This document shows, piece by piece, positions 15,673 through 48,560 of a DNA stretch of 64,000 nt. The notes below the pieces were generated by a model. It made no database searches and was not told the origin of the DNA. It was given only the letters and a program-made list of their open reading frames with translations. A program made the position numbers and the translations under genes. Source of the stretch: Methanosarcinales archaeon Met12 (lineage in GTDB: Archaea; Halobacteriota; UBA148; JAJOKI01); NCBI GenBank assembly GCA_002813105.2, contig CP017966.2, forward strand, positions 1-64,000, in the 5' to 3' direction. Within the stretch, counting starts at the first letter, position 1. Each line of letters begins with the position of its first letter.

Positions 15673-16272
15673 TTGAAAGAAACTATCGAGACTTATCTTG
15701 ATATCTCAGGCGTATCAAAGATTGCAAGGCGATACTTCGTCATGAATTCTTTTGATGGTGTCTTGACGGTGATGGGACTCATCATAGGCGCATATATAGC
15801 TGGCATAAGAGAGCCTGAGACGATCCTGAGTACAGGCATTGCAGCGAGCATTGCATTGAGCATCTCGGGTGCTAGCAGTGCTTATATGACCGAGCAGGCG
15901 GAAAGAGCTATGGAACTCAAGCATTTAGGGAGCGCTATGCTGGTCGATCTCAACGACACGAAACATGAACAGGCATCAAAGTTTGCATCGATCTATACGG
16001 CAGCGGTTAATGGAGCAACTCCATTGATAGTAGGGTCAATCGTGTTGTTGCCATTTTTCATATCGACTTTCATCCTGCCAATAGATGAGATATTTAGGAT
16101 AGGTGCGTTTGAATCATCATTGGTCATATCCTATGTCACATTGATATCGTTGAGCATCTATCTTGCAAAGATAAGCGGCGAGAATGTATGGAAGTATGGA
16201 CTTCGAATGCTCTTCATTATAACGCTTACAGTGGCAGCGTGCATTGGCATAACGATGCTATTTGTATACTGA
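15673..16272 (+). CDS. VIT1/CCC1-family membrane protein (metal transporter-like)
   Basis: A 199-residue protein with an N-terminal amphipathic helix and four to five hydrophobic segments. The conserved stretch FVMNSFDGVLTVMGLIIGAY matches the first membrane helix of VIT1/CCC1 iron/manganese exporters. MTEQAERAMELKHL resembles the shortened cytosolic metal-binding loop. It starts at TTG 15673 preceded by GGAG at 15661-15664. Its stop directly abuts the stop of the convergent larE gene. Confidence 0.8.
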   Translation: MKETIETYLDISGVSKIARRYFVMNSFDGVLTVMGLIIGAYIAGIREPETILSTGIAASIALSISGASSAYMTEQAERAMELKHLGSAMLVDLNDTKHEQASKFASIYTAAVNGATPLIVGSIVLLPFFISTFILPIDEIFRIGAFESSLVISYVTLISLSIYLAKISGENVWKYGLRMLFIITLTVAACIGITMLFVY

Positions 16273-17070
16273 TTATAAAACCTCGTCCATACTCCCGCTC
16301 CTGTATCCCTCAAGGTCGAGCGTTACATACTTAAATCCAATCGCCTTCAATTTCTTTACGATTATATCTCTCAAATCCAATGCCCTTTCCAGTTCATCTT
16401 CCAATAGCTCCACTCTCGCAATCTCTCCATGCATCCTGACCCTGACCTGTGCAAAACCCTCCTTTATTAACATCTCTTCGGCCCTTTCGACCATCAAAAG
16501 TTTATCTTTCGTGATCGCCTCACCATAAGGTATCCTCGAGGATAAACATGCAGAAGATGGTTTACCCCAAAATGATAACCCAAGTTCTTTTGACATCTCG
16601 CGAATGTCAGATTTCGTTATTCCAACATCGACAAAAGGGTGCCATATCCCGGCTTCATCACATGCTTTTATTCCGGGGCGGTGTTCATCAAAATCCGACA
16701 GATTAACGCCATCTGCTATGCATTTTATCCCCCTATCTGACGCCGCTTTCTTTAAAACCTTTGCAAATTCATTCTTACAATAATAACATCTATCTGGTGG
16801 GTTTTTAATGAAATCTTCATTCTCCAGTTCGGAGTGTTTTATTATCTCGTATCGACATCCAAGACCTTCTACGAACTCTTTTGCATGTTTCAGTTCGATT
16901 CTCGGCAGCGTTTCGGTATCCAAAATGACACAGAAGGCATCATCACCGAGTGCATCATATGCCACTTTCAGAAGAAGTCCGCTATCAACGCCCCCGGAGA
17001 ATGCAACCAATACCTTTTTTTTATCGGCGATATTCTCTTTTAGCTTTTTGAGTTTATCTGAGCAGTTCAT
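16273..17070 (-). CDS. larE: LarE-type ATP-dependent sulfur transferase
   Basis: A 265-residue PP-loop enzyme. Motifs are VLVAFSGGVDSGLLLK (PP-loop), PDRCYYCKNEF and KPSSACLSSRIPYGE. LarE adenylates a pyridinium dicarboxylate mononucleotide and inserts sulfur, in lactate racemase cofactor synthesis or related pathways. The trio of cysteines (CYYC plus ACLSSR) is the arrangement linked to [4Fe-4S]-type LarE rather than the single sacrificial cysteine type; that is inference. It overlaps the upstream small gene by 17 bp and ends the seven-gene block. No larA, larB or larC lies nearby. Confidence 0.88.
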   Translation of the reverse strand: MNCSDKLKKLKENIADKKKVLVAFSGGVDSGLLLKVAYDALGDDAFCVILDTETLPRIELKHAKEFVEGLGCRYEIIKHSELENEDFIKNPPDRCYYCKNEFAKVLKKAASDRGIKCIADGVNLSDFDEHRPGIKACDEAGIWHPFVDVGITKSDIREMSKELGLSFWGKPSSACLSSRIPYGEAITKDKLLMVERAEEMLIKEGFAQVRVRMHGEIARVELLEDELERALDLRDIIVKKLKAIGFKYVTLDLEGYRSGSMDEVL

Positions 17071-17311
17071 ATATTTTATCCGCCGCCTCTTTTGCTTTCT
17101 CTTCCGAATCTGTTTTTATGATGAGCTTCCCAGTCCGGTGTATTGATATTTCGCACGCACCTTTAACGATCAACATGATTTTAGCATTCGCCACGATATC
17201 GTAGTCTTGTTTCAATCTTTCGGCAGATTCGTCAATGTCAAAACAAAGGTCCTTATCGGGAATTGCCTCATACGCGGCAGAGGTCTTACACGGCTTAACA
17301 AGATACAACAC
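17054..17311 (-). CDS. Small conserved-looking protein between ThiI-like and LarE
   Basis: An 85-residue protein I do not recognise. It starts best at GTG 17311, seven bases after GGAG, with MLYLVKPCKTSAAYEAIPDK. The C-terminal half (IMLIVKGACEISIHRTGKLIIKT, then EEKAKEAADKIYELL) resembles one half-repeat of TATA-binding-protein-like or Pcc1-like folds: two strands with a conserved Arg-Thr-Gly-Lys turn, then a helix. It overlaps thiI by 17 bp and larE by 17 bp, so it is surely translated with them. One cysteine in the N-terminal KPCK and one in GACE could matter for sulfur transfer. Confidence 0.65.
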   Translation of the reverse strand: MLYLVKPCKTSAAYEAIPDKDLCFDIDESAERLKQDYDIVANAKIMLIVKGACEISIHRTGKLIIKTDSEEKAKEAADKIYELLR

Positions 17312-17924
17312 GAGCACTCTCCATCGATTCTTCAATCAATGATTCTATGTTAACCTTCTCCTCTTCCCTTAACACAATCTCCAATTTTGCAGCAGTCGAG
17401 GGTTTTTCTGGAACGATCGTACAACATAAACCAGGCAAAATTGAAAGGTCATAAGTACCGATCTTCCTGGCGATGTCAATGATATCGACCTTATCCATTC
17501 CGATCAAAGGCCTCATTATTGGCGTTTTAACTGCCTGATTTGTCACATAGATATTTTGTAGCGTCTGGGATGCGACTTGTCCGAGCGACTCCCCGGTGAG
17601 TATTCCATCGGCGCCCTCTCTTTCTACAATATTCGCCGCAATTCTCAACATCATCCTTCTACATAACACACATTGTAACTTCTCAATGCAGTTTCTCGCA
17701 AATGCGGCCTGATTGTCTCCATGCGGGACGACGAACGTTTTTATGCCCTTATCGAAGAGATTTTCAAGGTGTTTTACCAATTTCAATGACTTGTCAAGCT
17801 GTTTTTCATCAGTGAATGGGCGATTATCGAGATGAAGCGCAATTACTTCCACGCCCTTCTTCATCATAAGATATGTCGCAACTGGTGAGTCTATTCCGCC
17901 CGAAATTAGTGATACGAGTTTCAT
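17295..17924 (-). CDS. ThiI-like PP-loop sulfurtransferase lacking THUMP and rhodanese domains
   Basis: About 209 residues from ATG 17924, which overlaps the upstream stop as TAATG. Motifs are LISGGIDSPVATYLMMKKG (PP-loop), HGDNQAAFARNC, CVLCRRMMLRIA and LTGESLGQVASQTLQN, typical of the ThiI catalytic domain that forms 4-thiouridine in tRNA or assists thiazole synthesis. The usual N-terminal ferredoxin-like and THUMP domains are absent, so tRNA binding must be different or supplied by another protein. The paired cysteines CVLC could carry sulfur. Confidence 0.82.
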   Translation of the reverse strand: MKLVSLISGGIDSPVATYLMMKKGVEVIALHLDNRPFTDEKQLDKSLKLVKHLENLFDKGIKTFVVPHGDNQAAFARNCIEKLQCVLCRRMMLRIAANIVEREGADGILTGESLGQVASQTLQNIYVTNQAVKTPIMRPLIGMDKVDIIDIARKIGTYDLSILPGLCCTIVPEKPSTAAKLEIVLREEEKVNIESLIEESMESARVVSC

Positions 17925-18289
17925 TATAGTGTCCTCAAACACACATCGCAGTCTTCCTGGACCACCTCCTGTCCTTTATGCAATTCGCAGAGCTCCCCGC
18001 TTATCCTGATTTGCGTACAGATTCTACAGAGTCGGGGGATCAAATCATCAAAGGCACCATCCTCGGCGATATCATTTGTCAGTCTCCTTATGGCATCTTT
18101 GGCCTCTTCTTTGAATTTCATGGTTTTTCCTCTCTTTTCCTTCACATACTGCGAAACCGCTGCCTGCGTAATCCCAAGTCTTTCAGACACTTCTTTTTGA
18201 GATAGCCCCAGCTTGAGGAGTTCCTTGGTCAATTCATACCTTATGCTTGGCAGGACATACCAGACTATTAGTTCACAGGGCGATTTCAT
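17924..18289 (-). CDS. HTH transcriptional regulator with cysteine-rich C-terminus
   Basis: A 121-residue protein from ATG 18289 (MKSPCELIVWYVLPSIR). The helix-turn-helix is LSQKEVSERLGITQAAVSQYVKEKRG (about residues 29-54). The C-terminal part carries cysteines in LCRICTQIRISGELCELH and DCDVCLRTL, which could form an Fe-S or zinc sensor. Its ATG overlaps the stop of the lipoprotein gene. A duplicate of its first 17 or so codons lies as a remnant at 22.3 kb. It may sense sulfur or metal status for this operon; that is inference. Confidence 0.78.
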   Translation of the reverse strand: MKSPCELIVWYVLPSIRYELTKELLKLGLSQKEVSERLGITQAAVSQYVKEKRGKTMKFKEEAKDAIRRLTNDIAEDGAFDDLIPRLCRICTQIRISGELCELHKGQEVVQEDCDVCLRTL

Positions 18290-18672
18290 CTCACAATCAC
18301 GTCTCCGACCTTTACCACAATTACCTGTGGTCGTGGAGCTTGATAAAAAGTGCCTCTTACTTCCACGATTTTTCCAATGCTTGGTGGTATCGGCTTTTCC
18401 CACGCCTCCCCTATCATTTCCACAAACATAACGCCAGTACCATCATTTATATTAAACTTGCATCCCCTGCTGCATTGATTGATTATCGTCCCTTTAATCG
18501 CAACCTCTACCCCATCGTATTTCTCCCTGTTTTCAAGCAAATCACGAATGGATATCAACTCAACTGTTCTATCGTCTCCTGTAGGGGCTGTTTCATCGTC
18601 TATGCATCCGCTGACTAACATTATCGCCATAACCATTAAAACAATTAAGATATGGCTTAATTTGGTTTTCAT
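18286..18672 (-). CDS. Lipoprotein with OB-fold-like domain
   Basis: A 128-residue protein. The signal peptide with hydrophobic core (ILIVLMVMAIMLVSGC) ends at a lipobox cysteine at about residue 22. The mature part reads like a tRNA-anti/OB fold (VAIKGTIINQCSRGCKFNINDG then GKIVEVRGTFYQ). It would be membrane-anchored outside the cell. It overlaps the ATPase gene upstream and the HTH gene downstream by ATGA junctions. It is probably an accessory to the MacB-like transporter. Confidence 0.75.
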   Translation of the reverse strand: MKTKLSHILIVLMVMAIMLVSGCIDDETAPTGDDRTVELISIRDLLENREKYDGVEVAIKGTIINQCSRGCKFNINDGTGVMFVEMIGEAWEKPIPPSIGKIVEVRGTFYQAPRPQVIVVKVGDVIVR

Positions 18673-19328
18673 ATTATCATCCCATCAAACAATTTTATCT
18701 TTTTTCTAGCTGTGTTTGCTATCTTTTCATCATGCGTTATTATGACCATGGCAACTCCCTTTTCTTTATTTAACTCCGTTAACAAATTCAATATTTTATT
18801 GCCAGATGCAGAATCTAAATTTCCTGTCGGCTCGTCAGCAAGTATTAATTCAGGATTATTTGCCAATGCCCTGGCAATTGCAACTCTCTGCTGCTCACCA
18901 CCAGACAGTCCCGAAGGATAGTTATCCAGCTTATCTGCCAGTCCAACCAACCCCAACAACCTAACTGCCTTTTCCTTCCTGTTATTGTCCCTGCTAAATT
19001 CCAAGGGCAACATGACATTTTGCAATGCGCTCATGCTGTCATTCAAATAATACTGTTGAAAAACAAAGCCTACCCTATCCCGCCTTACCATAGTCAATTC
19101 ATCGTCACTAAGTCTTTCTGCATGCTTTCCATCGATCAAGACAGCCCCTTTTGTAGGCTTATCCAAAAAACCCAATATGTGTAAGAGCGTGGACTTCCCA
19201 GAGCCCGAAGGACCGACAATGGAAGTAAAATCACCCTTCTCGATTTTCAAATTAATATTTCTCAGTGCCCAAAACTCGTTCTCCCCTCCTTCATACGATT
19301 TTGATACATTTATGAGTTCTATCATCAT
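18669..19328 (-). CDS. ABC transporter ATP-binding protein (MacB/LolD family)
   Basis: A 219-residue ATPase with Walker A GPSGSGKST, Q-loop FVFQQYYL, signature LSGGEQQRVAIARAL, Walker B LILADEPTGNLD and switch histidine IITHDE. This set is typical of the LolD/MacB/FtsE branch, which powers mechanotransmission rather than classical transport. The start overlaps the permease stop by 4 bases. Confidence 0.93.
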   Translation of the reverse strand: MMIELINVSKSYEGGENEFWALRNINLKIEKGDFTSIVGPSGSGKSTLLHILGFLDKPTKGAVLIDGKHAERLSDDELTMVRRDRVGFVFQQYYLNDSMSALQNVMLPLEFSRDNNRKEKAVRLLGLVGLADKLDNYPSGLSGGEQQRVAIARALANNPELILADEPTGNLDSASGNKILNLLTELNKEKGVAMVIITHDEKIANTARKKIKLFDGMII

Positions 19329-20443
19329 AACTCCTTCAATGCGTTAATTGGTGTTGTTTTTGCAGCACTCATCGCCGGATATATTCCTGAAATAGTACCC
19401 ACGCCACATGCCACGATCAAACATATCAGCACATATTGTGGTGAGAAATATGGGCTATACTCGATACCTAAAATACCTGCTATGGGAAAAAGGTTCATAA
19501 AGACATAACCCATCAAAACTCCAAATATTCCTGCAACCACCGAAAGAAACAGTGATTCAAACATAAACAATTTGAATATATCTTTTTTAGTTGCACCTAT
19601 AGCCCTAAACAGCCCGATATCCTTTTTTCGCTCATACGCTGCCATCATCATGGTATTTACTGTGGTGAACATTCCTGTCACGATTGCTATCCCTGTAATC
19701 AGCAGCAGATTTGCTTTTATCATGGCAAACAAACTCATGAGTGTATCAAAGACCTCTGACGGAGGAACAGCTTGCATGTTTCCTAACCTGCCAAGCACTT
19801 CTCTTGTTTCAGGCGCCCTTCCAACGTCCTCTGTTATTACGAGTATTGCGCTTAAACTCCCCTCTAGGTCAAAGATTTCTTGGGCAACATCCAGCGGCAC
19901 GAATATAAAAGTGTCATCCCTCCCACCCGTTTCATCCAAAATTTTGATTATTTTTATGTTTAATTCGTTAAATCCTCTCAGATAGATGGTCTGCCCCTGG
20001 GCAAGATTCAGGTCACCAGCTACATCACTCCCAACCACGGCGCCGTTAAACTCTTCAATGTCCCATTGCTTTAATTCATTTATTTCTTCTGTAGTGCCGT
20101 ATATGGATACTAAATTGTCGGCGACCGTGGCCTTCCCGACAACCACCGGCACAGCAAGTTTCACGTTATCCTCTCCCTTTATATGGGAGAGCTTCTCCTC
20201 CGGAATATATTCCATTGTATCTACGCCTTGCATCAGAGCGATGATGAGCATATGAGGACAGCCCTCCGGGAGGAGAATGATATGAGCACCCAGGCCCGCT
20301 ATTTCTCGTTCCAATGTCAGTTCAATTCCGGCACTGATAGACAACAGTGCAAACAAAGTGGCAACACCAATAGAAATCCCAACTATTGTTAACAAGGTTC
20401 TTGCTTTCCTTTTCCTTAGATTAGCATATATCATCCACCACAC
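19325..20443 (-). CDS. ABC transporter permease (FtsX/MacB family)
   Basis: A 372-residue membrane protein. The first transmembrane segment lies at about residues 15-38 (ARTLLTIVGISIGVATLFALL), then a large extracytoplasmic domain of about 200 residues. Three C-terminal membrane segments follow, including the FtsX-type stretch YERKKDIGLFRAIGATKKDIFKLF. It is the first gene of the seven-gene overlapping block that ends with larE. ATG at 20443 or 20434 is possible. Substrate unknown. Confidence 0.9.
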   Translation of the reverse strand: MWWMIYANLRKRKARTLLTIVGISIGVATLFALLSISAGIELTLEREIAGLGAHIILLPEGCPHMLIIALMQGVDTMEYIPEEKLSHIKGEDNVKLAVPVVVGKATVADNLVSIYGTTEEINELKQWDIEEFNGAVVGSDVAGDLNLAQGQTIYLRGFNELNIKIIKILDETGGRDDTFIFVPLDVAQEIFDLEGSLSAILVITEDVGRAPETREVLGRLGNMQAVPPSEVFDTLMSLFAMIKANLLLITGIAIVTGMFTTVNTMMMAAYERKKDIGLFRAIGATKKDIFKLFMFESLFLSVVAGIFGVLMGYVFMNLFPIAGILGIEYSPYFSPQYVLICLIVACGVGTISGIYPAMSAAKTTPINALKEL

Positions 20444-20519: not shown

Positions 20520-20978
20520 TTATGCTTTTTTTTCTGTCGTTTCCAATTCTTTTCCAATCCTTTCATGAGTTTTAACTAACTCTCTAGATATTGGCAAATC
20601 GTTCTTAGATAGATAATCATAAACAGCCTCACTTAAAGCGTCTGCAGCAAGGACGGAACAATGAATTTTAATCGGCGGCAGACCGCCCAAAGCATTAGCT
20701 ACATCCTGCTTTGTTATCTTTAGTGCTCCTTCCAAAGTTTCTCCTTTAGCAAGTTCTGTTATCATAGAAGAAGTAGCAATAGCAGCTGCACAACCCAGTG
20801 TTTTAAATTTGATATCTTTGAGTATCACTTCTTCTTTTTTATTTTTTTCTACCTTAATAAAAATCCACATTATATCGCCACAAATAAAATTCCCGGCTTT
20901 TCCTATTCCATCTGCATTCTTTATTTCCCCCATATTTTTTGGGTGCATAAACTGCTTCATGACTTCTTCAGTGTACAT
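20520..20978 (-). CDS. iscU: Iron-sulfur cluster scaffold IscU/NifU N-terminal type
   Basis: A 152-residue scaffold on which [2Fe-2S]/[4Fe-4S] clusters are assembled. The three ligand cysteines are visible in NFICGDIMW, KTLGCAAAIATSS and IKIHCSVLAADAL. GGTGA inside the iscS 3' end, spaced five bases from ATG 20978, fixes the start. A GTG 12 bases upstream is less likely. The preceding gene is iscS, giving the standard donor-scaffold pair. Confidence 0.93.
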   Translation of the reverse strand: MYTEEVMKQFMHPKNMGEIKNADGIGKAGNFICGDIMWIFIKVEKNKKEEVILKDIKFKTLGCAAAIATSSMITELAKGETLEGALKITKQDVANALGGLPPIKIHCSVLAADALSEAVYDYLSKNDLPISRELVKTHERIGKELETTEKKA

Positions 20979-20979
20979 T

Positions 20980-22128
20980 TTAATCACCAAATGGACTAAT
21001 TTTTCTTAAATTCTTAATTTCTTCTCTTAATGTATTTATCGTGTATTCCATTTCCTCCTCCGTATTCCCTTTTCCAACAGTAATCCTTAAGCTACTGTGA
21101 GCATCTTCCGGTGTTAAACCAATGGACAACAGAACATGAGATGGTCCTAAGGTGTGGGAGGAGCAGGCACTACCAGTAGAGCATGCAATACCTCTTGCAT
21201 CTAAACGCAAAACCAGAGATTCACCTTCTATATATTTGAAAGAAAAATTAGCATTGTTACAAAGTCTCATAGTTGGATGGCCATTTAATTTTGTATTGGG
21301 GATCTCTTCTAACACACCCTTAATCAATACATCTCTAAGTTTTGCCATACGTTGAATATCATGCTCTTTAGCGATTTCAACTGCTTTTGCAAATCCCACT
21401 ATCCCGGGAACATTTTCCGTTCCTGATCTTATATCTTTTTCATGTCCTCCGCCATGTTGCCATGTTTCGATTTTAACGCCTTCTTTTATATACAAAGCAC
21501 CAACGCCCATGGGGCCATAAATTTTATGGGAGTTTATCGTAACCAAATCCAAATTTCGTTTTTTTACGTCTAAAGGAACTTTTGTAAATGATTGGCAGGC
21601 ATCAGTATGAAAGTGAACATCATGCTCTTTACAAATTTTCCCAATTTTTTCGATTGGTTCTATCGTTCCAACCTCGTTATTAGCATGTATAACCGAAACA
21701 AGAATTGTATCCTTTCTTATCGCCTTTTCTAAATCTTCAAGCCTGACAAACCCATACTGATCAACCGGCAGACGTGTGACTTCGAAACCCTGCTTCTCCA
21801 GCCACTTACATGAATTTAATATACATTCATGTTCTATTCGTGAAGTGATTATATGTTTTCCTTTGTTTCTGTTAGCAAATGCAACCCCTTTTAATGCTAA
21901 ATTATTTGACTCTGTACCGCCAGATGTAAAGACTATTTCTTTGGAATCGGCGTTGATTTTTTTAGCAATGATTTCTCTCGAATTCTCCAAAGCCACTTTT
22001 GCTTCTTGTCCAAATTGGTGGATAGATGATGCGTTTCCAAACTTTTTTGTGAAATGATTGAGCATTGCCTCTACTACCACAGGGTCAACCGATGTTGTAG
22101 CAGCATGATCTAAGTATATCCGTTTCAT
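20980..22128 (-). CDS. iscS: Cysteine desulfurase IscS/NifS
   Basis: A 382-residue class V aminotransferase-fold enzyme that takes sulfur from cysteine. The PLP lysine is in TINSHKIYGPMG and the persulfide-forming loop is CSTGSACSSHTLGPSHVL with the active cysteine in SACSS. HFHTDACQSF is the cofactor-stacking region. It lies divergent from the tRNA-Cys/SepCysS cassette about 300 bp away, so cysteine production and cysteine use face each other across a shared regulatory interval. Confidence 0.95.
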   Translation of the reverse strand: MKRIYLDHAATTSVDPVVVEAMLNHFTKKFGNASSIHQFGQEAKVALENSREIIAKKINADSKEIVFTSGGTESNNLALKGVAFANRNKGKHIITSRIEHECILNSCKWLEKQGFEVTRLPVDQYGFVRLEDLEKAIRKDTILVSVIHANNEVGTIEPIEKIGKICKEHDVHFHTDACQSFTKVPLDVKKRNLDLVTINSHKIYGPMGVGALYIKEGVKIETWQHGGGHEKDIRSGTENVPGIVGFAKAVEIAKEHDIQRMAKLRDVLIKGVLEEIPNTKLNGHPTMRLCNNANFSFKYIEGESLVLRLDARGIACSTGSACSSHTLGPSHVLLSIGLTPEDAHSSLRITVGKGNTEEEMEYTINTLREEIKNLRKISPFGD

Positions 22129-22517: not shown

Positions 22518-22949
22518 ATGAGACTTCAATTCAAGCACTGTGATTATATAAAATGGAAAGTAAAGAAAAAAGCGAAGTCCTCAATAATTGAAGAACTGGG
22601 CAGCAACAACGAGGGCTATGTTGACGAGGCTTTAGTCGTTTTCATGGCTTCTGAAGGGCTTGATCAGAAAAATCCTCAAGAGGTGAGCCAGAAGGCAGTG
22701 GAATCGATAGGAGACGTTGCGAACCAAATTAAAATCAAAAGGGTCGTTTTATTTCCATATGTCCATCTGTTTCCAGAATCTTTGCCTCCTGCAGAGTTTG
22801 CATTTGATTGTATAAAACAAATAGGATATATCCTGGAAAGAGAGGGATATGAAGCTTGGAGGGTGCCATTCGGTTGGTATAAAATGCATGAATTGAGATG
22901 CAAAGGTCACCCATTATCTGAACTTTCAAAAACCATAAGATGTGATTGA
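22518..22949 (+). CDS. Freestanding archaeal threonyl-tRNA synthetase editing domain
   Basis: A 143-residue protein matching the archaeal ThrRS N-terminal editing domain (DTD-like fold) along its whole length. Motifs are MRLQFKHCDYIKWKVK (family: HSDYIEYEVK), RVVLFPYVHLFPE (family: YPFAHLSSE), PFGWYK and RCKGHPLSELSKTI (family: SCKGHPLAELSRTI). It ends exactly where the domain ends, with no catalytic core. In ThrRS this domain hydrolyses Ser-tRNA-Thr. Freestanding forms are known as halves of split crenarchaeal ThrRS. Here the partner in the operon is SepCysS instead. GGAG at 22510-22513 precedes the ATG. Confidence 0.85.
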   Translation: MRLQFKHCDYIKWKVKKKAKSSIIEELGSNNEGYVDEALVVFMASEGLDQKNPQEVSQKAVESIGDVANQIKIKRVVLFPYVHLFPESLPPAEFAFDCIKQIGYILEREGYEAWRVPFGWYKMHELRCKGHPLSELSKTIRCD

Positions 22950-22951
22950 AA

Positions 22952-24352
22952 ATGAGTATCAAAACCCAAAAAATTTTTGAAGCAGAATTTTTGTTAGAAG
23001 ATATGAGAGAAATCATTAGAAAAACCAGTCCTCACAGCGCATTCTCAAAAGACGACAAAATACAATTTAATGAAAAATTAAAAAAACTTAGTGAAATAGT
23101 AGAAGAATTAAGAACGAATAAGTATACTGAATTAAAGATTAAATACATCACAAATGGAATAGAATTAAGGACGAGAGAAGAAGATTTTATAAACATTCAT
23201 CCAATTCAAGCAGCTGGAAGATTAACACTTGAAGCAAGAAAAGCATTAATTTCCTATGGTGATGGTTATTCTACCTGCGACTGGTGCCGAAAACCATTTA
23301 GGTTAGATAAAATCCATAGGCCGCCAATAGATGAATTTCACAGTGAACTAGCTGAGTTTGTAGGAATGGATCAAGCAAGAGTAGTCCCGGGAGCAAGACG
23401 TGGCTTTCAAGCAGTTGTATCATCGCTCATTGAGAAAGGCGATAGCGTGCTTCTTTCAGCCATATCACATTACACCGAGTTTTTGGCGGTAGAAGACAGC
23501 GGTGGGACCGTTAAAGAGATACCCCTAAACGAGAAAAACATAGTTACCGCAGATGCTACTGTTCAGAAGATAGAAGACGTGAAAAAGAACACGAAAAAGC
23601 TGCCAAAATTAATAATGCTCGATCACTTTGACTATATGTTCGGAAATGAACATGATGTCTATGGTATTGCAAAGGTAGCCAATGAATACGATATTCCATT
23701 TTTATACAACGGAGCATATACCGTTGGGATAATGCCAGTCGATGGGAAGAAGATAGGCGCCGATTTTGTAGTTGGTTCCGGACATAAGAGCATGGCGTCA
23801 GTAGCTCCTTCCGGCGTCCTCGCCACAACCGATGAATGGGCATCCAAAGTGTTTAGAACAACTCAGATGGTGGGGGACATCACTGGTAGAAAGTTTGGAA
23901 TCAAAGAAGTAGAGATGTTGGGTTGCACACTGATGGGCGGCACATTGATTTCAATGATGGCATCTTTTCCAAAAGTAGTGGAAAGGACAAAACACTGGGA
24001 TGATGAGGTGAAGAAGTCGAACCAATTCCTCGATGAGTTTTTGGCAGTAGAAGGGAGCAAGGTCATAAGCGAATATCCAAGAAAACACACACTCACAAAG
24101 GTCAATACCACCGAAAGTTTCGACAAAATAGCAAAAACGCATAAGAGACGGGGCTTCTTCCTTAGCGACGAGCTGAGAAAAAGAGGTATCGTTGGCGAGT
24201 TTGCCGGCTCCACACGGACCTGGAAGTTGAACACCTATGGACGCACATGGGACCAGATAAAGTATCTTGGACATGCGTTCATCGACATCGCTGAGAAATA
24301 TGACGTGCCAGTGAAAGCAAATAAGCAAGGGCAGTATAGCGGCGATGTGTGA
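22952..24352 (+). CDS. pscS: O-phosphoseryl-tRNA(Cys):cysteinyl-tRNA synthase SepCysS with N-terminal extension
   Basis: PLP enzyme that converts Sep-tRNA-Cys to Cys-tRNA-Cys using a sulfur donor. 466 residues from ATG 22952, two bases after the previous stop. The core begins at about residue 78 with NIHPIQAAGRLT. Active-site cysteines are Cys109 and Cys112 (YSTCDWC) and Cys325 (EMLGCTLMGG). The PLP lysine is Lys279 (GSGHKSMAS). The core alone is the usual length of about 390, so the first 75 residues, mostly helical and charged, are extra. Extended forms have been reported in some archaea and bacteria. SepRS is not in the window. Confidence 0.95.
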   Translation: MSIKTQKIFEAEFLLEDMREIIRKTSPHSAFSKDDKIQFNEKLKKLSEIVEELRTNKYTELKIKYITNGIELRTREEDFINIHPIQAAGRLTLEARKALISYGDGYSTCDWCRKPFRLDKIHRPPIDEFHSELAEFVGMDQARVVPGARRGFQAVVSSLIEKGDSVLLSAISHYTEFLAVEDSGGTVKEIPLNEKNIVTADATVQKIEDVKKNTKKLPKLIMLDHFDYMFGNEHDVYGIAKVANEYDIPFLYNGAYTVGIMPVDGKKIGADFVVGSGHKSMASVAPSGVLATTDEWASKVFRTTQMVGDITGRKFGIKEVEMLGCTLMGGTLISMMASFPKVVERTKHWDDEVKKSNQFLDEFLAVEGSKVISEYPRKHTLTKVNTTESFDKIAKTHKRRGFFLSDELRKRGIVGEFAGSTRTWKLNTYGRTWDQIKYLGHAFIDIAEKYDVPVKANKQGQYSGDV

Positions 24353-46092: not shown

Positions 46093-46179
46093 TAACCTTA
46101 TGATAAGATGGCAAACAGCCATGTGACGAATCATAGTTCTGGAAGTTTTAAGTACAAAGCAGAGATAACATCTATTCAT

Positions 46180-47379
46180 ATGAGCATCGCCAGGAAGATA
46201 TTATTGGTCGTTTTAGATGGCATTTCAGATAGGCCAACAGAAGGAAAAACCCCATTACAGAGTGCCGATGCACCCAATCTCGACAGAATAGCGAGTCTTG
46301 GCATCAACGGAATCATGGACCCCATCGCGCCTGGGATCCGACCAGGCTCAGATGTTGCGCATTTGGCATTGTTGGGATATGACCCATACGAAGTTTATAC
46401 AGGCAGGGGACCCCTCGAGGCAGCAGGCGTGGGTATTCATCTGAAAGAGGGGGATATTGCCTTCAGATGTAATTTTGCGACGATGAAAGACGGCATAATC
46501 GTGGACCGGCGCGCTGGACGAATACGGGACACGATGGAATTAACAAGGGCTGTTCAGGATGGAGTTCAATTAGATGGAGAGTTCATCTTCGAGAGGTCAA
46601 CAGGGCATCGGGCGGTGCTGGTTTTGAGGGGGGCTGGTTTGAGCCCATACGTCTCGGATTCGGATCCAAAACACGAGGGTATGCCATCCAAAACCATCGA
46701 GGCGCTAAAATCAGAAGCGCAAAAAACCGCAGATATCCTGAAAGAGTTTGTCATACAATCGGACAACTTACTGAAAAAACATCCCGTTAATGCAGAACGT
46801 ATAAAAGTGGGCAAAGCCCCTGCGAACACCATATTGGTCAGAGGCGCAGGCATGATGCCAAATATAAGGACGTTTTCAGAAAGATATGGATTAAAGGGCG
46901 CAATAATCGCTGAGACGGGAGTGGTCATCGGCATTGGACGGATATGTGGTCTGAAGCACGGTGAAGTCGGTGGCGTCGATTCTGATATCGATGCAAAGGT
47001 CAGGAGTGCAATCGATGCGCTGAAAGACCATGAGTTTGTGCTGTTGAATGTCAAAGGTGCGGATGAAGCTTCTCACGATGGAAACGTTGAGAAGAAGATA
47101 AAATTCATCACCAGGGTCGATAAAGCGTTGAAGCCCATACTCGAGCTCAAAGATACGCTGGTGGTCGTGACGGCAGACCATTCGACGCCTGTATCCGTTA
47201 GAGACCATTCCGCCGACCCAGTCCCAGTAACGATTATGGGTCCTGGTGTACGAGTGGATGCCGTTCGTGTTTATGATGAAATTAATGCCGCAACAGGAGG
47301 GTTAAACCGCATCCGTGCCATATATCTGATGCCCATTTTGATGGATTTGGTCAATCGGACGAAAAAATTTGGAGCATGA
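46180..47379 (+). CDS. apgM: 2,3-bisphosphoglycerate-independent phosphoglycerate mutase (ApgM)
   Basis: Interconverts 3- and 2-phosphoglycerate in archaeal glycolysis/gluconeogenesis. About 399 residues from ATG 46180 ([19 protein letters not shown]). Alkaline-phosphatase-superfamily motifs are [26 protein letters not shown]-like [11 protein letters not shown], and [19 protein letters not shown]. The upstream 24 codons show no family match. It overlaps the next gene in ATGATG. Confidence 0.94.
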
Positions 47380-48560
47380 TGATATCCATTGCACTTGCAG
47401 GTAAGCCGAATGTCGGCAAATCATCGTTTTTCAAAGCTGCGACGATGATAGATGTCGAAATCGCCAGTTACCCCTTTACGACCATAGATGCCAACCATGG
47501 CATATCACACGTGCGCACGAAATGTCCCTGTAAAGAGCTCAAGGTCGATTGTAAAAACTGCATAGAAGGGGACAGATTCGTCCCGATCGAGTTGATAGAC
47601 GTGGCTGGCCTAGTCCCTGACGCACATAAAGGAAGAGGGCTTGGAAACGAATTCCTGGATAACCTGCGTCAGGCCAAAGCCATCATACATGTAATAGATG
47701 CTTCCGGTGGCACGGATGCGGAGGGCAATCCAGTAGAAGTGGGGACGCACGCTCCCGTTGATGACGTACGGTTCTTTGAGAAGGAAATTACAATGTGGTT
47801 GTATGGCATCATCAAGCGCCACTGGGCACGGTTGTCGCGAAAACTACAAAGTAGTCGAGGGCCAATGGAGCATGTCCTTGCGGAGTTGCTGGCAGGAGTC
47901 GGCACAGATGAAACGCAGATAAAGGTCGCACTCCATAATACGATGCTTACGCCCACAAACTGGTCAGACGAAGACCTGATGAAGTTTGCTGATGAAATCA
48001 GAAAGCTCAGCAAACCGATGATAATCGCGGCAAATAAGATCGATATAGCACCTGACGAATGTATCCAACAACTTCGTTCACTGGAGAAGGAAGGACGCAC
48101 CATAGTGCAGACGAGTGCGGGGGGTGAACTTGCACTCAGACTGGCAGAGAAAAAAGGACTGATATCATATCTGCCAGGAGATGCCGATTTTCAGAGCATA
48201 ATGCCAGAAGAATTGACAGATGCACAGAGAGAAGGGCTGGAGCGCATAAGGGCGCTATTGAAGAAGTATGGTGGCACAGGCGTCCAGCAGTGCATAAACT
48301 GCGCAGTCCTGGGATTGCTGGACAATATCGTCGTATATCCTGTGGAAGACGAGAACAAGTTTACGGATAAGAACGGTAATGTGCTGCCAGACGCGTTTTT
48401 GGTGCGGAAGGGGAATACTGCACATGACCTGGCATACATGATTCACACCGATTTAGGAGCGGGGTTCCTATATGCAGTGGATGCCAGGGCGAAGCGCAGA
48501 GTGGCTGAAAAGCATGTGCTTGAAGATGGAGATATCATCAAAATAGTTTCAACCAAGTAA
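47376..48560 (+). CDS. Obg-like GTPase (archaeal YchF/DRG relative) with TGS domain
   Basis: A 394-residue GTPase. Motifs are AGKPNVGKSSFFKAA (G1), DVAGLVPDAHKGRGLGN (G3) and AANKID (G4), with a C-terminal TGS-like domain (HDLAYMIHTDLGAGFLYAVDAR). Such proteins bind ribosomes. Length and architecture match the archaeal redox-regulated ATPase/YchF-like group. The exact role is unknown. Confidence 0.9.
   Translation: MMISIALAGKPNVGKSSFFKAATMIDVEIASYPFTTIDANHGISHVRTKCPCKELKVDCKNCIEGDRFVPIELIDVAGLVPDAHKGRGLGNEFLDNLRQAKAIIHVIDASGGTDAEGNPVEVGTHAPVDDVRFFEKEITMWLYGIIKRHWARLSRKLQSSRGPMEHVLAELLAGVGTDETQIKVALHNTMLTPTNWSDEDLMKFADEIRKLSKPMIIAANKIDIAPDECIQQLRSLEKEGRTIVQTSAGGELALRLAEKKGLISYLPGDADFQSIMPEELTDAQREGLERIRALLKKYGGTGVQQCINCAVLGLLDNIVVYPVEDENKFTDKNGNVLPDAFLVRKGNTAHDLAYMIHTDLGAGFLYAVDARAKRRVAEKHVLEDGDIIKIVSTK

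Follow-up and report, generated by a model that had tools for sequence, protein, structure and literature searches.

A lone ThiI catalytic domain and a catalytically dead ThiI as candidate subunits of a split 4-thiouridine synthetase in Methanosarcinales archaeon Met12

In the genome of Methanosarcinales archaeon Met12 (GCA_002813105.2; one contig of 1.07 Mb, 97% complete), seven minus-strand genes overlap in succession at 20443-16273 of the 64,000-nucleotide stretch analysed here (CP017966.2, positions 1 to 64,000; hereafter the window). They encode, in order, an ABC permease, its ATPase, a lipoprotein, a helix-turn-helix (HTH) protein, a ThiI-like PP-loop protein (gene 5), a small protein (gene 6) and LarE. 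We read the array as two joined modules and gene 5, a lone PP-loop domain, as the catalytic subunit of a split tRNA 4-thiouridine (s4U8) synthetase whose partner is a catalytically dead ThiI encoded elsewhere in the genome; we put the probability of this reading at roughly 0.7. The upstream module would consist of the ABC trio. The downstream module would continue the neighbouring NifS and IscU genes with the HTH regulator, the lone PP-loop domain, a TBP-like helper and LarE.

Gene 5 (17295..17924, minus strand; 209 amino acids) begins at the boundary of the PP-loop domain, and NFLD-THUMP is not in the chain. It matched PF02568 with 225 bits, far over the gathering score, and stayed below the curated cut-offs of TIGR00342 (223.1 versus 264.5 bits) and PRK08349 (245.5 versus 251). 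The ATP-site motif SGGxDS was present as SGGIDS at residue 8, and the three cysteines typical of a cluster-binding enzyme were found by sequence as C85 and C88 (CxxC) plus C167 or C168. Judged by these features, gene 5 is only the catalytic half of a ThiI enzyme. It was 73% identical to the active C-terminal PP-loop domain of a tandem ThiI from Methanolliviera.

Besides gene 5, the genome had a single ThiI match, a 321-amino-acid gene at 774.7 kb, 757 kb away (L039:6721-7686; G, L and f numbers are our labels for genomes, loci and families). It was also the strongest THUMP match of the genome, and two weaker THUMP proteins were other open reading frames (ORFs). This native ThiI shared 60–63% identity with the intact ThiI proteins of its order and carried several lesions in its PP-loop domain: TDDISSS replaced SGGIDS, about 17 residues with the CxxC motif were deleted, and the chain ended at the IGT(Y/F) motif. 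The ThiI of a congener (G001, L040:6070-7041; 81% identity) had the same lesions, with SDDINSH in place of the ATP-site motif. By these motifs, the native ThiI is predicted to be catalytically dead. The ratio of nonsynonymous to synonymous substitution rates (dN/dS) between the two congeners was 0.24 (THUMP 0.22, dead PP-loop domain 0.25). Since this low ratio extended over both domains, the native ThiI, its dead PP-loop domain included, is maintained under purifying selection and not freely decaying. An in-frame TGA in the native gene, considered as a selenocysteine codon or a sign of a pseudogene, was rejected, because the TGA is simply the stop codon, which the alignment had included; as in G001, the ORF is unbroken.

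The two chains differed in their phylogenetic placement. Gene 5 grouped with Methanolliviera (support 99/94, and 93/91 in a smaller tree), as did the window LarE, together with a subset of ANME-1 (support 88/94), whereas the dead ThiI copies nested within their own order. These placements suggest that the catalytic domain and LarE were acquired by transfer and that the THUMP chain is native. LarE lies 3' of the active PP-loop domain in both the window and Methanolliviera.

A heteromeric enzyme is compatible with the known architecture of ThiI. In the crystal structure of ThiI with RNA, the tRNA lies on the NFLD-THUMP part of one subunit, catalysis takes place in the other, and the subunits dimerise through their PP-loop domains (PMC4041423). 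Because of this cross-subunit arrangement, a chain with THUMP and a dead PP-loop domain would, together with a bare active PP-loop domain, keep one complete site, which makes a heteromeric s4U8 synthetase the best reading of the two genes. In the proposed mechanism, the lone PP-loop protein would dimerise with the native ThiI, in which NFLD-THUMP is retained and the PP-loop domain is folded but dead; the contact would be through the PP-loop domains of both. The dead chain would hold the tRNA by its NFLD-THUMP part and place U8 at a [4Fe-4S] active site in the lone PP-loop chain. Sulfur would reach this cluster from NifS persulfide or from sulfide. LarE would thiolate its nickel-pincer precursor by the same cluster chemistry.

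The same division of ThiI recurred in other archaea, sampled evenly, not exhaustively, by phylum. In Methanolliviera (family f9) and relatives, a tandem ThiI of about 500 amino acids (L033:7849-9339, L034:64-1605, L035:11540-13039, L036:8882-10381) contained NFLD-THUMP, a PP-loop domain that had lost the same elements, and an active PP-loop domain 70–73% identical to gene 5; LarE followed. One Methanolliviera genome (G050) had a second dead THUMP-ThiI (306 amino acids, L311:1486-2406) besides the tandem one. A dead THUMP-ThiI (299–343 amino acids) and a lone PP-loop protein (about 200–216 amino acids) coexisted in G208 and G218 (family f31), and such a combination was also found in four genomes of one genus in family f7, which is presumably Archaeoglobi (G096, G154, G193, G258). 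Among the sampled full-length ThiI proteins without a lone PP-loop protein, 10 of 11 had an exact SGGxDS motif, and the eleventh (G054) had SSGIDS. A Fisher test of dead ThiI against the presence of a lone PP-loop protein gave 7 of 10 versus 0 of 10 (p 0.003), a value to be taken as a guide only, for genomes that are not independent and with G054, which has no exact motif, left out of the second group. On balance, it seems probable that heteromeric 4-thiouridine synthetases evolved repeatedly in archaea, with a mobile lone PP-loop protein, often accompanied by a TBP-like helper and LarE, taking over catalysis and the resident ThiI decaying to a tRNA-holding pseudoenzyme. We found no report of a split ThiI in the literature (open-licence PMC papers).

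By sequence, the best match of the dead ThiI in the PDB was PH1313 of Pyrococcus horikoshii (1VBK, E 4.9e-37), which was also without SGGxDS in the alignment of the two. A review from 2023 lists PH1313 as lacking conserved residues, with unconfirmed activity (PMC9957541). A solved structure without confirmed activity, and the existence of THUMP proteins without a catalytic domain such as Tan1 (PMC9957541), would also suit a dead ThiI that serves as a tRNA-binding protein in some other role, for instance as a regulator or chaperone, unrelated to the lone PP-loop protein. We consider this very unlikely, given that in Methanolliviera precisely these two parts are joined in a single polypeptide.

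The gene after the lone PP-loop domain encodes the small TBP-like protein (17054..17311, minus strand; 85 amino acids, GTG start), which overlaps its neighbours by 17 nt on each side. A six-member profile of this protein found copies adjoining ThiI genes. The PP-loop gene preceded and overlapped the small gene in the window and in G060 and G197, and the order was reversed, with a 4-nt overlap, in G208 and G218. In G037, G191 and G386, the small gene was convergent beside a full ThiI gene. In G033 (L088:5726-5848), a 40-codon remnant of its C-terminal half overlapped the start of LarE, and the N-terminal half was gone. The same domain formed the C-terminus of ThiF-like E1 proteins in G060, G197, G112 and G179 (L303:1483-2553, L304:622-1746, L294:1486-2511, L295:727-1743). 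In ANME-1 (L294), the ThiF-like E1 gene lies between LarE and an HTH gene. The window protein itself had weak similarity to TBP; its single-sequence AlphaFold model was poor (pLDDT 63), and Foldseek matches to it were not significant. The possibility that it is a remnant of THUMP was rejected because the profile matched TBP-like domains. Such domains have been known at the C-terminus of E1 enzymes since 2010 (PMC2948915), and we found no description of the free-standing, ThiI-linked form in the literature.

The pairing of PP-loop and small genes bears on another explanation, namely that the two proteins form a separate, THUMP-less thiolation enzyme with its own substrate, the dead ThiI being a decaying relic and s4U8 having been lost. 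The pair recurs in both gene orders and coexists with an intact ThiI in G060 and G197, where it adjoins a SufS-like desulfurase and a ThiF-like E1 with the same TBP-like domain; in G060, a cysteine synthase is also near. A relic is difficult to reconcile with an intact ORF in two species under a dN/dS of 0.24 across both domains. Moreover, the dead THUMP-ThiI co-occurs with or is fused to a lone PP-loop domain in further groups, and a relic should not persist so often. This explanation thus appears unlikely. Several observations nevertheless weigh against the split synthetase. With an intact ThiI present in G060 and G197, the lone PP-loop protein may have its own substrate there. No catalytic partner turned up in the assembly of G001, which is 76% complete. 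The order of the array was seen in a single genome, and the overlap with the ABC genes keeps co-expression, and hence some link, possible.

The downstream half of the array is part of a wider sulfur context that begins upstream of the interval 20443-16273. A NifS/IscS-type cysteine desulfurase (20980..22128, minus strand; TIGR03402 518 bits, just below the cut-off of 530.75) overlaps by 11 nt an IscU/NifU-N Fe-S scaffold gene (20520..20990, minus strand; PF01592 139 bits, above cut-off). IscU is on the same strand as the array and 76 nt upstream of the permease gene, so that the array may comprise nine genes. The HTH protein (17924..18289, minus strand) is COG2522-like and has the four conserved cysteines (C5, C88, C91, C101) and the Fe-S or sulfur neighbours expected of an Fe-S sensor of this type. 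All 30 homologues had C5, C88 and C91, and 25 of the 30 had C101, which makes the protein a plausible cluster-sensing regulator of the sulfur locus. The last gene encodes a LarE sulfur transferase of the CxxC-C type (16273..17070, minus strand; TIGR00268 318.5 bits versus a cut-off of 150), with SGG at residue 25 and C95, C98 and C175. LarC, of the NPN pathway, is encoded at 441679-442824 (PF01969, E 8.5e-126). In LarE of Thermotoga, which is of this type, the sulfur is carried by a [4Fe-4S] cluster (PMC9283937).

Parts of this sulfur half were found together elsewhere. In many genomes, LarE was located directly 3' of the HTH gene, often with divergent NifS-IscU beside it (L085, L095, L096, L098), and HTH, NifS and IscU were contiguous in one Nanohalarchaeota and one Micrarchaeota metagenome-assembled genome (L163, L212). 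The sulfur half is thus a recurrent module, in which the HTH gene adjoins LarE or NifS-IscU across many archaea. In the window, further sulfur genes near the locus were recognised by translation only: a probable Sep-tRNA:Cys-tRNA synthase (SepCysS; 22946-24352, plus strand), divergent from NifS, and a MOSC-like protein after it.

The preliminary description of this DNA had interpreted the array as an operon in which tight overlaps couple a MacB-like transporter and a lipoprotein to the sulfur enzymes in one common process. The layout itself was as described, with successive overlaps of 4, 4, 4, 1, 17 and 17 nt. With a crude ORF caller, 15 of the 48 same-strand neighbour pairs in the window overlapped by 1–20 nt, about 12 of them outside the array by our reading of the ORF list, and overlap also joined functionally unrelated genes (e.g. 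46108-47379 and 47376-48560). Gene overlap is therefore ordinary in this genome; six overlaps in succession are notable, yet alone they are no evidence for a single process. We infer that the genes of the array are co-transcribed. A scan with sigma-70 models, which are unsuited to archaea, showed no excess of promoters or terminators over shuffled sequences.

The permease (19325..20443, minus strand; 372 amino acids) was of the FtsX/MacB type, with matches above cut-off to PF02687 (FtsX, 76.5 bits) and PF12704 (MacB_PCD, 66.2 bits). Its start codon is GTG, and the N-terminus MWWMIYA agrees with that of its orthologues, which were found only in four genomes of one sister family within the same taxonomic order (f2; 49–52% identity); the remaining full-length matches had about 34% identity or less. 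The LolD/MacB-like ATPase (18669..19328, minus strand; 219 amino acids, 4-nt overlap) matched PF00005 (ABC_tran) with 119 bits and, among the NCBIfam models, LolD best (244.8 bits). LolCDE or MacB identity of the trio was rejected (LolD 244.8 versus 307.75, LolCE 84.9 versus 362.45, MacB 218.8 versus 966 bits). The lipoprotein (18286..18672, minus strand; 4-nt overlap) had the lipobox LVSGC and a CSRGC motif (C67, C71), and no relative was detectable in 177 genomes of the phylum. Its mature part formed an OB barrel in an AlphaFold model (pLDDT 79). The OB fold was weak by sequence, and the Foldseek matches were OB folds, including E. coli YgiW (TM 0.70). In the sister family, the permease and ATPase genes overlap as well, and the gene after them encodes a third anchored protein, which is not an OB-fold lipoprotein. 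Since a diverged MacB-like pair elsewhere likewise stands beside an extracytoplasmic anchored protein, a portable trio of permease, ATPase and exterior partner is the natural reading. In one further genome (G015), a 28%-identical permease was encoded about 4.4 kb from LarE on the opposite strand.

On the reading as a single process, the transporter and lipoprotein would import or export a small molecule that contains or accepts sulfur and on which ThiI and LarE act, or else iron for the clusters. The six close overlaps do imply that the genes are co-translated, and an iron theme is conceivable with NifS-IscU and a VIT1/CCC1-like gene flanking the array. In the sister genome G002 (L138:7660-12503), some 0.6 kb separate the permease orthologue from the end of what looks like an iron cluster with FeoB and a DtxR/MntR-type regulator, identified by translations; an iron link of the ABC transporter is possible. 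The orthologous ABC pairs in the four sister-family genomes, however, adjoin hisS; their third protein is another one, sulfur genes are absent there, and a transporter–sulfur linkage was seen in no sampled genome. Together with the frequent overlap of unrelated genes in the window, this makes a shared process distinctly unlikely. The expectation that the gene order would be conserved across relatives, as opposed to unique to this genome, also failed, as the full order was repeated in no other sampled genome. Only one other genome of the genus, G001, was compared; it had neither the permease orthologue nor a close LarE, and the HTH, PP-loop and small genes were lacking too, a set of absences that one missing locus would explain. 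What stands of the common process is that the sulfur genes belong together, as the pairs HTH-LarE, HTH-NifS-IscU, ThiI-LarE and ThiI-small recur in many genomes; extending it to the transporter is not supported. The trio, with IscU on one side and HTH on the other, has the position that an insertion into a sulfur locus would have. It looks like a lineage-specific FtsX/MacB-type system and is apparently a chance neighbour of the sulfur genes. The VIT1/CCC1-like gene (15673..16272, plus strand; PF01988 48 bits, above cut-off), of an iron/manganese transporter family, is convergent with LarE, abuts its stop and is probably outside the unit.

Besides correcting the transporter reading of the operon, the analysis flags a widespread four-cysteine HTH protein as a candidate archaeal Fe-S or sulfur regulator. 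If the split synthetase is real, an enzyme of tRNA modification so far regarded as homodimeric would have separated into one active and one dead subunit on several occasions in archaea, and at least once the active part would be foreign, gained by gene transfer. This would also provide an example of a pseudoenzyme kept by selection, and PH1313 and 'hypothetical' lone PP-loop proteins would acquire a testable function. Had the heteromer evolved repeatedly, the orphan structure of PH1313 would be accounted for, and the pairing would parallel that of Ctu1/Ctu2 at another tRNA position.

Known systems resemble individual parts of the locus. Like MacB and LolCDE, the array has a permease with FtsX and MacB_PCD domains, a LolD-like ATPase and an exported partner, but its proteins fall below the LolC/E, LolD and MacB cut-offs and the partner is an OB-fold lipoprotein. 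The window LarE shares SGGxDS and CxxC-C with the [4Fe-4S]-type LarE of Thermotoga maritima, and LarC is in the genome, but it lies in a ThiI/Isc locus and not in a lar operon. The profile of the small protein matches the TBP-like C-terminal domain of E1-like MoeB/ThiF proteins (PMC2948915), whereas the window protein is free-standing, overlaps the ThiI PP-loop gene and has no GG tail. PH1313 resembles the dead ThiI in sequence and in the absence of SGGxDS, but comes from Thermococcales and is known without a partner. Lone PP-loop proteins of the PRK08349 type, which we take to occur in Thermococcales, are candidates for that partner. Compared with the archaeal Fe-S type of the tRNA U8 4-sulfurtransferase ThiI/TtuI, gene 5 has the PP-loop with SGGIDS, CxxC and a third cysteine, and NFLD-THUMP is present in the genome; here, however, the catalytic and tRNA-binding parts are encoded 757 kb apart and the THUMP chain has a dead PP-loop domain. 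The eukaryotic U34 thiolase Ctu1/Ctu2 (Ncs6/Ncs2) likewise pairs an active PP-loop subunit with a paralogue, Ctu2, that lacks the cluster cysteines, and has been modelled as a heterodimer (PMC10067955), although it belongs to a different PP-loop subclass, acts on a different tRNA position and has no THUMP domain.

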